Made by a program: the position numbers and the translations under genes
The notes under the pieces: model-generated
Told to the model about the DNA's origin: nothing
Database searches by the model: none
The model's input: the letters and a program-made list of their open reading frames with translations, nothing else
NCBI GenBank assembly: GCA_002897715.1
Contig: BDUA01000048.1
Coordinates: forward strand, 1 to 44,289
Length of the DNA: 44,289 nt
Direction of reading: 5' to 3'
DNA from: a bacterium BMS3Abin01
GTDB lineage: Bacteria; Actinomycetota; Thermoleophilia; BMS3ABIN01
In this document: positions 4,306 through 32,516 of the stretch, piece after piece
Numbering within the stretch: the stretch's first letter is position 1
Layout: each line of letters begins with the position of its first letter

Positions 4306-5412
4306 CTAGATACGGCAGGCGCCGCTGTAGCCGCCTACAGCTCCGACGCTGGTAATGGAGACTACCGCGCCTTCGTAAGGGGCATGGATCATGCTGCCGC
4401 CGCCGATATAGATACCCACGTGGCTTATAGGACTGCCGAAGAAGACGAGGTCGCCGGGAGCCAGCTGGTTGTAGCTGACAGGGATCCCCGAGTACCGCTG
4501 GGCCGCTGCCGAGTGCGGCAGGTAGACACCCATCTGGGCGTAGACGTACATGGTAAGGCCTGAGCAATCAAAGCCCGACGGGGATGCCCCACCCCAAACA
4601 TAAGGGGTGCCCAGGTATTGCATGGCGATGGATACGGCACCGCCGCTGCCGGGCGGGGGTGGTGGCTCATATGGCGGGTTCGGCTCCCAACCGGGTGAAC
4701 CGGTTTGTTCCGGTGACGGGGAGGCCTCCGGGGAGCTGGCGGGCGCCACGGCGGCCACCTGTTGCTGCGCCTGTGCCTGCTGCTGGGCGAGCATGCCGGC
4801 GATCTCGCTATCGACACCGTTCAGGACTTCCTGGCGTGCCGCCAGCCGGGACTCGATCTCAGCCTTTTCTTTTTCCAGGGTACCGACCAGCTCCTCCTGT
4901 TTCTTGCGGCTCTGTTCCAGCTCCGTCCGGGTATCCTCCACCTCCGTCTTGTAGCGAAGTACCTCTGCCACATCCGCCTTGTCCTGGCTGCCGATGCGAC
5001 CCAGCATATCGAAACGTGACATGAATTCGTTGAAGTCGGAGGTATTGACGATGACATCGACAAAGGCGACGCTGCCTGCACGGTAGATCTTTTCCATGCG
5101 GGTATTGAGCCGGTCCTGGGCCGCGGCCAGGTTGGCTGAAGCCTCCGCCAGTGCTTTCTCACTATCCGCCAGCCGCTGGTTGGTCAGCTCCAGCTCCACG
5201 CCCGCCTGGTTGTAACGCTCGACCGCCTGCTCCGCGGCCAGGTTGATAGCGTCGATCTCCGCCTGTATCTGATCCGCTTGTGCCTGGCTGGACGCCAGGT
5301 TGGACTGAGCCTGGGCCGAGGCAAGGAAGGTCGATAGTATACAGACAGAGAGGAACCCTACCCCGATAAACCCGATAAGTAAACGCGTAATCAGCAGCCT
5401 GGGTATATACAT
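4306..5412 (-). CDS. Secreted NlpC/P60 peptidoglycan endopeptidase with coiled-coil N-terminus
   Basis: 368 residues. A hydrophobic signal peptide spans about residues 5-33 (cleavage likely after ASA). A long Ala/Gln/Glu-rich coiled coil runs from 37 to about 220, a Ser/Pro/Gly linker from 221 to 258, and a C-terminal NlpC/P60 domain from about 260 to 368. The cysteine-peptidase residues are present: Cys283 in FDCSGL, His331 in SHVGIYIG and His343 in MIHAPYEG. The layout matches RipA/CwlO-type hydrolases that cut stem peptides during wall growth or daughter-cell separation. The coiled coil normally provides autoinhibition or docking to an FtsEX-type activator; no ftsEX is in view. It diverges from the c-di-GMP gene at 5606. 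Confidence 0.92.
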   Translation of the reverse strand: MYIPRLLITRLLIGFIGVGFLSVCILSTFLASAQAQSNLASSQAQADQIQAEIDAINLAAEQAVERYNQAGVELELTNQRLADSEKALAEASANLAAAQDRLNTRMEKIYRAGSVAFVDVIVNTSDFNEFMSRFDMLGRIGSQDKADVAEVLRYKTEVEDTRTELEQSRKKQEELVGTLEKEKAEIESRLAARQEVLNGVDSEIAGMLAQQQAQAQQQVAAVAPASSPEASPSPEQTGSPGWEPNPPYEPPPPPGSGGAVSIAMQYLGTPYVWGGASPSGFDCSGLTMYVYAQMGVYLPHSAAAQRYSGIPVSYNQLAPGDLVFFGSPISHVGIYIGGGSMIHAPYEGAVVSITSVGAVGGYSGACRI

Positions 5413-5545
5413 GGTTGTTTCTTCACAAAACCGGCAGGCGATACGGCGCTGCCGTCGATTTATTTGTTCACAGATCTAGTTATTATTCGCTGGTTGGTGG
5501 CTTTACCCTTTAGGGGCGGGCAAGGGGTTCATGCTTCCGGAAAGC

Positions 5546-5572
5546 TAAAGTTTAGCCACCTGGCGCCGATGC
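5546..5572 (+). promoter_or_regulatory. Sigma-28 (FliA/SigD/WhiG) type promoter
   Basis: TAAAGTTT (5546-5553), an 11-nt spacer and GCCGATGC (5565-5572) match the FliA consensus TAAAGTTT-N11-GCCGATAA at 14 of 16 positions with exact spacing. The predicted start near 5579 leaves a short leader before the strong GGGGAGGAGG ribosome site and ATG 5606. The -35 lies in a small palindrome (GCTAAAGTTTAGC, 5544-5556). GGTGGCT 5496-5502 is complementary to AGCCACC 5554-5560. It points at the GGDEF/HD-GYP tandem. Confidence 0.82.
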
Positions 5573-5605
5573 CAGCTGCAGAGTCGGAAAAACGGGGAGG
5601 AGGCA

Positions 5606-7372
5606 ATGGCTAACCCTCAACAACGCTCCTGGTTTTCCAGGGCTTTGTATTATGGCATTATCGGGGCCTTCGGCGGCCTGGCGTATGCACTTTTGGCATT
5701 CGTGATAGATAGCAATACGCGCTACGAGTTTGCCGGGATACATCTGTTTATCGCTCCGCTTATCGCCGGCGCTTTCGCGTTTGTTCTCGGTCGTGAAGAA
5801 GACTGCATCCGCGGGCAGGCCCTCCAGCTGGAGGAGGCCAGAAACAGATTCACATCACTGGCCCATGCGGCCATCGCCGACGACGACTGGGAAGTCAACC
5901 TCCATGATATCGGTGCTCCTACCTGCTGGAAGGTCAAGGGATGCCATGCCACCGATTGCCCCGTCCACGGCAAGCACCATGTGCGGTGCTGGCTGATTGC
6001 CGGGACCTTGTGTGACGGTGAAGTTCAGGAGCGCTTCGCCCGGAAGCTCAACGACTGTGTCCACTGTGATGTTTACCGGGAGACCATCGGTTCCGACCCC
6101 ATGAACCAGATCGGGGAGACCTTCAACAACCTTATCTGGGCATTGAGCGAGAAAGAGGAGATGCTCGTCCAGGCCCACAGGGAACTGGAGACGAAATACC
6201 ATGAGTTGGAGGAACAGCAGAAGGAGACTCGCCGGGCAGCGGAAACCGATGCGCTCACCGGACTTGGCAACTATGAACACTTCCGTCGTTACCTGAAGAA
6301 GTTCGCTGTCAGGTCCCGGCGCTACGGCACACCGCTTTCCTTGCTGCTGATCGACCTGGAACACTTTAAAACCATCAATAACGAGTACGGGTTCCAGAAA
6401 GGTGACCTGGTGCTCCAGGCGGTAGGTGCCCTGTTGAAGGCTGAGATCGGTGCCGGGGACTACACCGCCCGTTACGGTGGCGAGGAGTTCGTCATCCTCC
6501 TGCACGGGCTGGAAGGTGAAGCGGCGCTGGAGTTCGCGGAGAATCTCCTGGAGAAGTTCAAGCGCGTCGCCGAGGATGCGGATTTGTCCAGGGAATACCT
6601 GGTGGTTAATATCGGTGTGGCCGATATCCCTGATTGTGCCGCTGATGCGGGCAGTTTGCTGACGGCAGCCGACACGGCGCTGCTGTTTGCCAGGAGGAAG
6701 AAGGACAGCAGCGTAGCCTATTTCCGTGACCTCTCCGAAATGGAACTGGAGAAGGGAGACCTGGACCGGCTGGGCAGCAGACTTGACGGTGCCGGCCTGG
6801 AGACCCTGAGCGCGCTGGCGGAGGCTGTCAATGCCAGTGACCAGTACCAGGGTGAGGATTCGGAAGACCTGTCTTCGCTGGCTGTAACCCTGGCCCATGA
6901 CCTGGGCATGAACAGGGAACAGGCCCGGGCGCTATCGCTCGCCACCAAGCTGCATGATATCGGCAAGATCGGAGTACCGGGGTCGGTGCTGAGAAAAACG
7001 GGAAAACTTTCTGATGATGAACTGTCCATGGTGCAGCGGCATCCGGAGATCGGGCAACGCATCCTGGAAGAGGCCGAGCAGATCAAGGACCTGATCTCCG
7101 CCATCCTTTACCACCATGAGCGATGGGACGGCATGGGCTATCCGGAGAGGCTCCGGGGAGAACAGATACCCCTCATGGCCAGAATCGTAGGCATTTTTGA
7201 TGCATACAGGGCCATGCGTTGTGATCGCCCTTATCGCCGGGCGTTGGTACGGAAGCAGGCGGCCGCCGAGCTACGCAAAGGCGCCGGCACCCAGTTCGAC
7301 CCGGACCTGGTGGAGAGATTCCTCGACCTGGTGGAGAACGACAGCTGTGAACTGGAAAGGAAAGCCGGCTAA
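5606..7372 (+). CDS. Membrane GGDEF + HD-GYP c-di-GMP protein with Cys-rich CW domain (copy 1)
   Basis: 588 residues. Two N-terminal hydrophobic segments (about 14-35 and 45-62) are followed by a cysteine-rich module at 107-154 (Cys107, 113, 118, 128, 136, 151, 154) resembling the two-CW domain. A coiled linker comes next, then GGDEF at about 212-370 and HD-GYP at about 395-575. The diguanylate cyclase loop is YGGEEF (291-295), but the inhibitory-site Arg is lost (GAGD, 282-285) and the usual DxD of the metal site reads D250-L-E252. HD-GYP keeps HDIGKIG (His450-Asp451) and HHERWDGMGYP (503-513), while the early conserved His of the YTxxHS motif is Asp417. Both synthesis and hydrolysis of c-di-GMP are possible. 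The cysteines suggest a metal or redox input. It is transcribed from the sigma-28 promoter. Confidence 0.93.
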   Translation: MANPQQRSWFSRALYYGIIGAFGGLAYALLAFVIDSNTRYEFAGIHLFIAPLIAGAFAFVLGREEDCIRGQALQLEEARNRFTSLAHAAIADDDWEVNLHDIGAPTCWKVKGCHATDCPVHGKHHVRCWLIAGTLCDGEVQERFARKLNDCVHCDVYRETIGSDPMNQIGETFNNLIWALSEKEEMLVQAHRELETKYHELEEQQKETRRAAETDALTGLGNYEHFRRYLKKFAVRSRRYGTPLSLLLIDLEHFKTINNEYGFQKGDLVLQAVGALLKAEIGAGDYTARYGGEEFVILLHGLEGEAALEFAENLLEKFKRVAEDADLSREYLVVNIGVADIPDCAADAGSLLTAADTALLFARRKKDSSVAYFRDLSEMELEKGDLDRLGSRLDGAGLETLSALAEAVNASDQYQGEDSEDLSSLAVTLAHDLGMNREQARALSLATKLHDIGKIGVPGSVLRKTGKLSDDELSMVQRHPEIGQRILEEAEQIKDLISAILYHHERWDGMGYPERLRGEQIPLMARIVGIFDAYRAMRCDRPYRRALVRKQAAAELRKGAGTQFDPDLVERFLDLVENDSCELERKAG

Positions 7373-7407: not shown

Positions 7408-9207
7408 ATGATTACACAGTATATGTCCAGATACATGAATAACATGCGCCGCATCTTCCTGGTTATGATCTCCTTCGGGTTGACCATGGGCCTGGTGTTT
7501 CCCGTCATCGTCGATCCCTTTGTCACCTGGAATCCCGGCATGAAGGTTTTCTTCAGAATCGCCTGCCTGGGAGCGGGTTTCGCCGTTGGCGCCTTCTGTT
7601 ATTACCTGGTCAAGGTGACGCTGTTTCATAGCAACATGCTGCTGGAAAAGCGCAAGAGCGAACTGGAGAGAGCCAAGGACAGGTTCGGCGCCCTGGCCAG
7701 CGCGGCGATCGCCGACCGCGACTGGGACGTCAGCTTCCATGATGCTCATATTCCCACCTGCTGGCAGGTCAAGGATTGCGACAAGGAGGATTGTCCCTGT
7801 CACGGCAAGGAGAGTATGCGCTGTTGGCTGGTTACCGGCACTTATTGCGGCGGCGAGATTCAGGGCCGTTTCGCCCAGAAGGTCGACAGATGTTCCCAAT
7901 GTGAAGTCTACCAGCAGGCGGTGAAATGCGATCCTATCAACGAGATCGGCGAGAATTTCAATAGCCTCATGTGGGTTGTCAGGGAACGTGAGAACGAACT
8001 TTCCGAGGCCAGGGCTATCCTGCAGGAGCAATATACGGAGCTGGAGGGGCTGCACAAGATCGCCAAGGAGGCGGCGGTAACCGACATGCTCACGGGCTTG
8101 AAGAACCATGGCCACTTCCAGGGACGCCTGGAGGAGGAGGTTGAAAGGGCTGAGCGGTACAGCAGACCCCTGGCGCTGGTGATGATAGACCTGGACTTCT
8201 TCAAGTCCATCAATGACAAATTCGGTCACCAGAAGGGTGACGCCGTGCTGGCGGGCCTGGGCGGCTTTCTCAGGCGGGAACTGCGTACAGTGGATTATGC
8301 CGCCCGTTACGGTGGCGAGGAGTTCGTTATCATCATGCCTGAGACCGATGGACCCGGGGCCCGGCGGGTTGCCGAGAGGCTCAGGGAGAATATCAAGTGT
8401 ATCGGCGATGAAGCGGGGCTTTCACAGGCCTATGTAGCAGCCAGTTTCGGTGTAGCCGATTTCCCGGCCTGTGCCGCCGATGCCAGCAGCCTTATCGCCG
8501 CCGCCGATTCGGCTCTGCTGTTCTCCAAGAGCAAGGGACGTAACCGTGTTTCCTATTTCCGTGATCTTTCCGAGACCGAGCTTAAGGAAGGCGATATCGA
8601 AAGCCTGAACAGCAGGCTGGAACACGCCAGCCTCAAGACCATCTGCTCGCTGGCCGAGGCGGTGGACGTTCGCGATCAGTACAACGGTGACGATTCCCGG
8701 GACCTGGCGCGGGTGGCAGCCGCCATGGCTGAACGCCTGGAAATGGGTGAACGGCAGGCGGACGCGCTGGCTCTGGCGACGGTGTTGCACGATATCGGCA
8801 AGATCGGCGTCCCCGACGCCATTCTTAACAAGCGTGACAAGCTCAACTCCGAAGAGATAGACATGATCCGGCAGCACCCGGAGATAGGGCGGCGTATCAT
8901 GCAGGAGGCCGAGCAGATCCAGGACCTGGTGGCGGCCATCCTCTATCACCACGAGCGCTGGGACGGCCAGGGCTATCCGGAGCAGCTCAAAGGTGAGAAG
9001 ATCCCCCTGATGGCGAGGATAGTCGGTATCTTTGACGCCTATCGGGCCATGAGTTCCAACCGGCCCTACCGGAAAGCGATGGACAACGCGCAGATCGTCG
9101 ACGAACTGCGCCGGGGCGCCGGCACCCAGTTCGATCCGGTTCTGGTGGAACTGTTTATCGACATTATCCAGGAAGACGAGCGGAAACAGCTGTCGCAGAC
9201 CGGCTAG
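7408..9207 (+). CDS. Membrane GGDEF + HD-GYP c-di-GMP protein with Cys-rich CW domain (copy 2)
   Basis: 599 residues, a clear tandem paralogue of the preceding gene 35 nt upstream, with the same order: two membrane segments (about 14-36 and 47-72), CW-type domain (Cys118, 124, 129, 131, 139, 147, 162, 165), coiled coil, GGDEF, HD-GYP. This copy keeps a complete cyclase: D261-L-D263, YGGEEF (GGEEF 302-306), and an intact inhibitory RxxD site (RTVD, 293-296) exactly five residues before GGEEF. HD-GYP has HDIGKIG (461-467) and HHERWDGQGYP (514-524), again with Asp (DDS, 428-430) where the early conserved His is expected. It is presumably cotranscribed with copy 1. Copy 2 looks feedback-inhibitable, copy 1 not. 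Confidence 0.93.
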   Translation: MITQYMSRYMNNMRRIFLVMISFGLTMGLVFPVIVDPFVTWNPGMKVFFRIACLGAGFAVGAFCYYLVKVTLFHSNMLLEKRKSELERAKDRFGALASAAIADRDWDVSFHDAHIPTCWQVKDCDKEDCPCHGKESMRCWLVTGTYCGGEIQGRFAQKVDRCSQCEVYQQAVKCDPINEIGENFNSLMWVVRERENELSEARAILQEQYTELEGLHKIAKEAAVTDMLTGLKNHGHFQGRLEEEVERAERYSRPLALVMIDLDFFKSINDKFGHQKGDAVLAGLGGFLRRELRTVDYAARYGGEEFVIIMPETDGPGARRVAERLRENIKCIGDEAGLSQAYVAASFGVADFPACAADASSLIAAADSALLFSKSKGRNRVSYFRDLSETELKEGDIESLNSRLEHASLKTICSLAEAVDVRDQYNGDDSRDLARVAAAMAERLEMGERQADALALATVLHDIGKIGVPDAILNKRDKLNSEEIDMIRQHPEIGRRIMQEAEQIQDLVAAILYHHERWDGQGYPEQLKGEKIPLMARIVGIFDAYRAMSSNRPYRKAMDNAQIVDELRRGAGTQFDPVLVELFIDIIQEDERKQLSQTG

Positions 9208-32245: not shown

Positions 32246-32284
32246 TTTTTTGCACGAAAAAATCGAATAGCTGGTTTTCAGCGA

Positions 32285-32397
32285 TGTCTTCAGGGCGGGG
32301 TGCAATTCCCCACCGGCGGTTACAGCCCGCGACCCTCTACGGAGGCTGACCAGGTGAAATTCCCGGGCCGACAGTTAAAGTCTGGATGGGAGAAGAT
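32285..32397 (+). promoter_or_regulatory. FMN riboswitch (RFN element)
   Basis: The conserved blocks are all present in order: TCTTCAGGGCGGGGTG at the 5' side, CCCCACCGGCGGT, AGCCCGCGA, then GGTGAAATTCC, GGGCCGACAGT and GTCTGGATGGGAGAAGA closing stem P1. It binds FMN and represses riboflavin genes. Downstream, GGTCGC 32407-32412 pairs with GCGACC 32426-32431 (extendable by AGA/TCT) as a probable expression-platform hairpin. No U-tract follows, so control may be Rho-dependent or at translation of ribD. Confidence 0.96.
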
Positions 32398-32516
32398 AGA
32401 GCTAGAGGTCGCCTTGGCCACAGGTGCGACCATGCCTCTTCGTACGATTCCGCCTGTAGAATATCCTGAATTATCGGTTGAAACTGTTGCCGGTGACAGG
32501 AAACCGGTACCCATTT

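Follow-up and report, generated by a model that had tools for sequence, protein, structure and literature searches.

Which sigma factor reads the promoter-like box that stands directly upstream of a tandem pair of c-di-GMP enzyme genes in the actinobacterium BMS3Abin01, and which cellular programme does this box serve? The box lies in a stretch of 44,289 nucleotides (contig BDUA01000048.1, positions 1 to 44,289; the whole stretch is called the window here). An earlier note on this DNA had described it as TAAAGTTT-N11-GCCGATGC upstream of the first GGDEF/HD-GYP gene, with 14 of 16 consensus positions at exact spacing, and direct reading of the sequence bears this description out (Table 1). Compared with the consensus that we used for the sigma-28/WhiG class (-35 TAAA(GTTT), -10 GCCGATAA, 11-nt spacing), the -35 element agrees in 8/8 positions and the -10 element in 6/8, the latter ending in GC instead of AA. 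The box ends 33 nt 5' of the ATG of gene 1, and it falls within the published definition of such promoters, which allows up to two mismatches to TAAA/GCCGATAA and a distance of up to 200 bp from the start codon (PMC8325347). No RNA element was found in 5300-5700. The divergent gene 5' of the operon encodes a coiled-coil, RipC-like NlpC/P60 peptidoglycan hydrolase, and the window also contains an FMN riboswitch aptamer (111 bits).

Table 1. Features of the operon and of related loci. Plain positions are those of the window; prefixed positions refer to other contigs or loci of BMS3Abin01 or of its relatives.
Feature	Position	Strand	Remarks
Divergent hydrolase gene	4306-5412	-	
-35 element of WhiG-type (sigma-28 class) promoter, TAAAGTTT	5546-5553	+	read directly; TNAAG core recurs upstream of most family orthologs
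11-nt spacer	5554-5564	+	9/11 identical in same-genus genome
-10 element, GCCGATGC	5565-5572	+	read directly; core GCCGAT plus GC; CCGAT kept upstream of family orthologs
Predicted transcription start	5579	+	roughly 7 nt downstream of the -10 element; from sigma-28 promoter geometry
Shine-Dalgarno-like GGAGGAGG	5596-5603	+	read directly
Gene 1 (588 aa)	5606-7372	+	two hydrophobic stretches, two-CW cysteine domain, GGDEF, HD-GYP
Gene 2	7408-9207	+	architecture of gene 1; motifs GGEEF and HD-GYP both intact; has an RTVD I-site
FMN riboswitch aptamer	32282-32401	+	
RsiG gene, BMS3Abin01	C17:17274-17543		
rsiG neighbourhood, relatives	L196:216-1207; L199		
SigB/F/G-like sigma gene, relatives	L140:9898-10725		and equivalents; between pilC and major pilin
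SigB/F/G-like sigma gene, BMS3Abin01	L135:1-408		contig C41; truncated at contig end
PilB gene, BMS3Abin01	L135:2790-4505	-	contig C41; MshEN domain
c-di-GMP-I-type aptamer	L137:6759-6837	-	relative
c-di-GMP-I-type aptamer	L138:12971-13068		relative
c-di-GMP-I-type aptamer	L139:13353-13432		relative
c-di-GMP-I-type aptamer	L140:10852-10937		relative
c-di-GMP-I-type aptamer	L141:12866-12943		relative
Second T-rich box	L137:14336; L138:13698; L139:14659; L141:14026		relatives; oriented coordinates

Both genes of the operon keep the GGEEF, HDIGK and HHERWDGxGYP motifs (HHERWDGMGYP in gene 1), and the Pfam domains GGDEF and HD_5 (HD-GYP) were assigned to gene 1, which is devoid of an RxxD I-site. 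Since gene 2 begins only 35 nt after gene 1, the two are probably carried on one transcript. The two-CW domain of both proteins is rich in cysteines, which are invariant among the orthologs of gene 1; our literature search returned no description of this domain.

The earlier note had supposed that the lineage possesses a sigma factor of the sigma-28 family, and such a factor was indeed found. The genome of BMS3Abin01 encodes one FliA/WhiG-family sigma above the family cut-off, and it scores as a WhiG equivalog (NF004935, 355 bits, cut-off 343). WhiG is present in 19/19 genomes of the family, the match in G001 being a fragment. The closest solved structure is that of Streptomyces venezuelae WhiG in complex with RsiG (6pfj; 52% identical), and the promoter-reading regions 2.4 and 4.2 of the two proteins are very similar. 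A sigma-28-class promoter could also be read mainly by a different factor, for example the SigF-like protein of the type IV pilus cluster, as in five relatives a SigB/F/G-like sigma gene separates pilC from the major pilin gene, and a truncated copy is present in BMS3Abin01 itself. However, the usual SigB/F consensus differs from the box at 5546-5572, and we count this against such a factor. The pilus-cluster sigma is, furthermore, only 29% identical to the WhiG of BMS3Abin01 and differs strongly in region 4.2, whereas this WhiG agrees with its S. venezuelae counterpart in the promoter-reading regions and the box fits the flagellar/WhiG consensus (PMC8325347). We consider it improbable that another factor, such as the pilus-cluster sigma, is the main reader and favor recognition by WhiG.

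The resemblance could also be fortuitous and the operon read from some other promoter, and counts within the single genome lend this explanation some weight. The box at 5546-5572 is the sole match with two or fewer mismatches in the 1.50-Mb genome, for which a simple base-composition model predicts 0.3-0.8 sites of 14/16 quality by chance. Matches with up to three mismatches numbered 7 versus 10 for the reversed-pattern control, i.e. they were not more frequent, and 0.10 such matches are expected in the window alone. The box count in this genome is not above control and was dropped as proof of a promoter. Because the number of boxes in one genome is near chance, the case for a promoter rests on position and conservation.

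Nearly every ortholog of gene 1 in the family has a box 5' of its start codon. The same-genus genome has boxes that are identical in 16/16 positions, and in the other genera of the family the pattern is TNAAG-(about 15 nt)-CCGAT, located in most cases 50-75 nt, and in two genomes farther, upstream of the aligned start. Compared with dinucleotide shuffles, the best match reached p values of 0.001 in the own genus, 0.003-0.07 in g6, 0.011 in g7, 0.016 in g5, 0.014-0.35 in g3 and 0.80 in g2, the box being weak in g2 and in some g3 genomes. These values were computed with the textbook consensus; the weight matrix had been trained in part on the very sites described here. No clear box was seen in G004, whose best gene match is a paralog of 45% identity. 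Fisher's method over genus medians gave p=2e-5, or 8e-5 with G004 included, combined values that serve as guides since the relatives are not fully independent. A family-like relative outside the set, a metagenome-assembled genome named as Actinomycetes, carries TTAAGGTATTTTAACCTTTGCCGATTG upstream of its copy of the gene. Comparative genomics shows that a predicted WhiG-type promoter has been kept upstream of the c-di-GMP enzyme operon in several genera. With the box retained before orthologs in several genera, and with no sigma-70-like promoter found in the intergenic region (5350-5606), we regard mere chance resemblance as very unlikely.

The earlier note had proposed that a motile or developmental programme is coupled to c-di-GMP turnover. 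This coupling is supported overall; flagella, however, do not belong to it, and type IV pili are predicted in their place. The flagellar export gene flhA is absent from 19/19 family genomes, including the 86%-complete draft of BMS3Abin01, and this absence indicates that the programme is not flagellar. That the operon belongs to a flagellar and chemotaxis FliA regulon, as in E. coli, would agree with the common consensus and with the presence of a sigma-28-class factor, but is scarcely credible given that FlhA is missing in BMS3Abin01 and the 18 family relatives examined while present in 7 other relatives of the class outside the family, and that the sigma factor scores above the WhiG equivalog cut-off.

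Further boxes, for which the earlier note had proposed a search, were found before other signaling genes; in relatives, the type IV pilin gene has one as well. Five TMAAG-N15-CCGAT sites are present in the genome of BMS3Abin01, four of them no more than about 100 nt 5' of signaling genes, namely the window operon and the genes for a HAMP-GAF-GAF-HD-GYP protein, a PAS-GAF histidine kinase and a hybrid kinase. Boxes thus precede c-di-GMP enzyme genes at two loci, the window operon and the GAF-HD-GYP gene. The chance of finding four of five sites before signaling genes is roughly 3e-5, assuming 1500 genes, and all four sites recur in the same-genus genome. The fifth site (TCAAG, contig C11) lies inside an opposite-strand frame of 414 codons and was dropped. 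The box is also found before the PAS-GAF kinases of three relatives (G005, G006 and G009). Sites before ribonucleotide reductase (G006/G015), inside an opposite-strand frame (G005) and elsewhere were left out of the count.

The anti-sigma factor RsiG was located first by its motif in relatives, allowing Q or H; a protein search then revealed it in the genome of BMS3Abin01. A motif search with a strict Q yielded nothing but XseB, a further unrelated frame and one match that lacked the arginine. The protein of BMS3Abin01 comprises about 90 amino acids with a single motif, EQELSFQRRILHGKID, and matches PF22802 with 68.7 bits; by protein search, RsiG was found in 17/19 family genomes, and the copy of one relative matches the solved RsiG chains 6pfj_T and 7lq4_D. 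As a single-motif RsiG is present, c-di-GMP is predicted to gate WhiG itself, so that control would also run from c-di-GMP to WhiG, a direction that the earlier note had not included. By analogy with tested proteins, c-di-GMP would arm the RsiG of this family to hold WhiG (PMC8325347). A box candidate 5' of the rsiG gene of BMS3Abin01, TGTCGTTT..GCCGATAA, scored poorly and was dropped. In relatives, the neighbors of rsiG include genes for Roadblock/LC7, small-GTPase (Arf/Ras-like) and FHA-domain proteins. MglA/MglB-like proteins control pilus polarity in other systems.

A sigma-28 box precedes the major type IV pilin gene in all five relatives whose pilus cluster could be read (p 0.003-0.024 each). 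It is located about 255-290 nt 5' of this gene, directly after the SigF-like sigma gene. The pilin gene of BMS3Abin01 and its promoter were not found when contig ends were searched, as the assembly breaks before the pilin gene, and the features of the leader therefore rest on the relatives. In 5/5 of these, the stretch between box and pilin contains a c-di-GMP-I riboswitch aptamer that exceeds the Rfam gathering score. A terminator-like hairpin followed by a T-run closes the leader, and the 5' arm of this hairpin, GTGGTTTGCC, shows complementarity to a segment of the aptamer, GGCAAACCAC. The consensus fold of the leader comprises aptamer and terminator, and one single-sequence fold pairs GTGGTTTGCC with GGCAAACCAC. 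From this complementarity and the alternative folds we infer that the pilin-leader riboswitch would act as a c-di-GMP OFF switch. GEMM-I aptamers, however, can also sense cGAMP (compare PMC8835794). In the literature we found no pilin gene described as having both a WhiG promoter and a riboswitch. In the pilus clusters of four relatives, genes for minor pilin-like proteins are preceded by a second, T-rich box, T(A/C)AnTTTT..TCCGATA(A/G). The PilB protein of BMS3Abin01 carries an MshEN domain, a relative of which, in Vibrio cholerae MshE, is a c-di-GMP effector (PMC8325347). It is conceivable, if tentative, that in this family c-di-GMP controls type IV pili in three ways, at initiation through RsiG-WhiG, at termination through the riboswitch and at assembly through MshEN-PilB, with the same sigma factor driving c-di-GMP enzymes; high c-di-GMP would then switch off the pilin gene in the first two of these ways.

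Taken together, we hold it to be highly probable that 5546-5572 is a promoter which is read by WhiG and drives a membrane-bound GGDEF/HD-GYP operon in a flagellum-less actinobacterium, with gating by RsiG and c-di-GMP. The box, its conservation, WhiG, RsiG, the intact catalytic motifs and the absence of FlhA are read from the sequences themselves, and it is from these that we infer that WhiG recognizes the box, that RsiG and c-di-GMP gate WhiG in this organism, and which sign the loop has. High c-di-GMP would arm the single-motif RsiG and WhiG would be held, and low c-di-GMP would release it. Free WhiG would then transcribe the type IV pilin gene, as suggested by the boxes in relatives, together with the genes for the GAF-HD-GYP protein and the histidine kinases and the window operon. 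As the window operon would be among its targets, the c-di-GMP-sensing switch would also set the expression of enzymes that make and destroy c-di-GMP, and a feedback loop would be closed around type IV pili via these enzymes. With respect to its sign, we lean slightly towards positive feedback with net phosphodiesterase activity, since HD-GYP occurs without GGDEF in one of the co-regulated targets.

Coupling of a sigma factor to c-di-GMP is not new. In Rubrobacter, WhiG-type promoters with mapped start sites precede pil genes and genes for diguanylate cyclases and phosphodiesterases, and feedback loops have already been proposed for this genus (PMC8325347). The BMS3Abin01 family resembles Rubrobacter in its WhiG, its single-motif RsiG and the WhiG-type promoters before type IV pilus and c-di-GMP enzyme genes. 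It differs in being uncultured, in the two-CW GGDEF/HD-GYP operon promoter present in most members, in the histidine-kinase targets and in the c-di-GMP-I-type riboswitch within the pilin leader of relatives. Family-wide conservation, kinase targets and a riboswitch-carrying pilin leader are what goes beyond the Rubrobacter arrangement. The sigma and anti-sigma families are the same as in the RsiG-WhiG system of Streptomyces (PDB 6pfj, 6pfv). The Streptomyces RsiG, however, has two c-di-GMP motifs and the regulon concerns sporulation, whereas the BMS3Abin01 family has one motif and a predicted regulon of pili and c-di-GMP enzymes. WhiG and c-di-GMP enzymes are connected in yet another way in Streptomyces, where the phosphodiesterase RmdB directly antagonizes RsiG (PMC13232838). 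Flagellar promoters of the FliA/SigD type share the consensus TAAAGTTT-N11-GCCGATAA, but the family studied here is without the flagellar export gene and its sigma factor is WhiG.

These findings extend the c-di-GMP-armed sigma/anti-sigma switch, found in the literature for Streptomyces and Rubrobacter, to an uncultured actinobacterial family, and conservation across genera strengthens the feedback loop proposed for Rubrobacter. In the pilin leader of the relatives, WhiG promoter and riboswitch are arranged in series, which provides a defined piece of DNA for testing two layers of c-di-GMP control separately.
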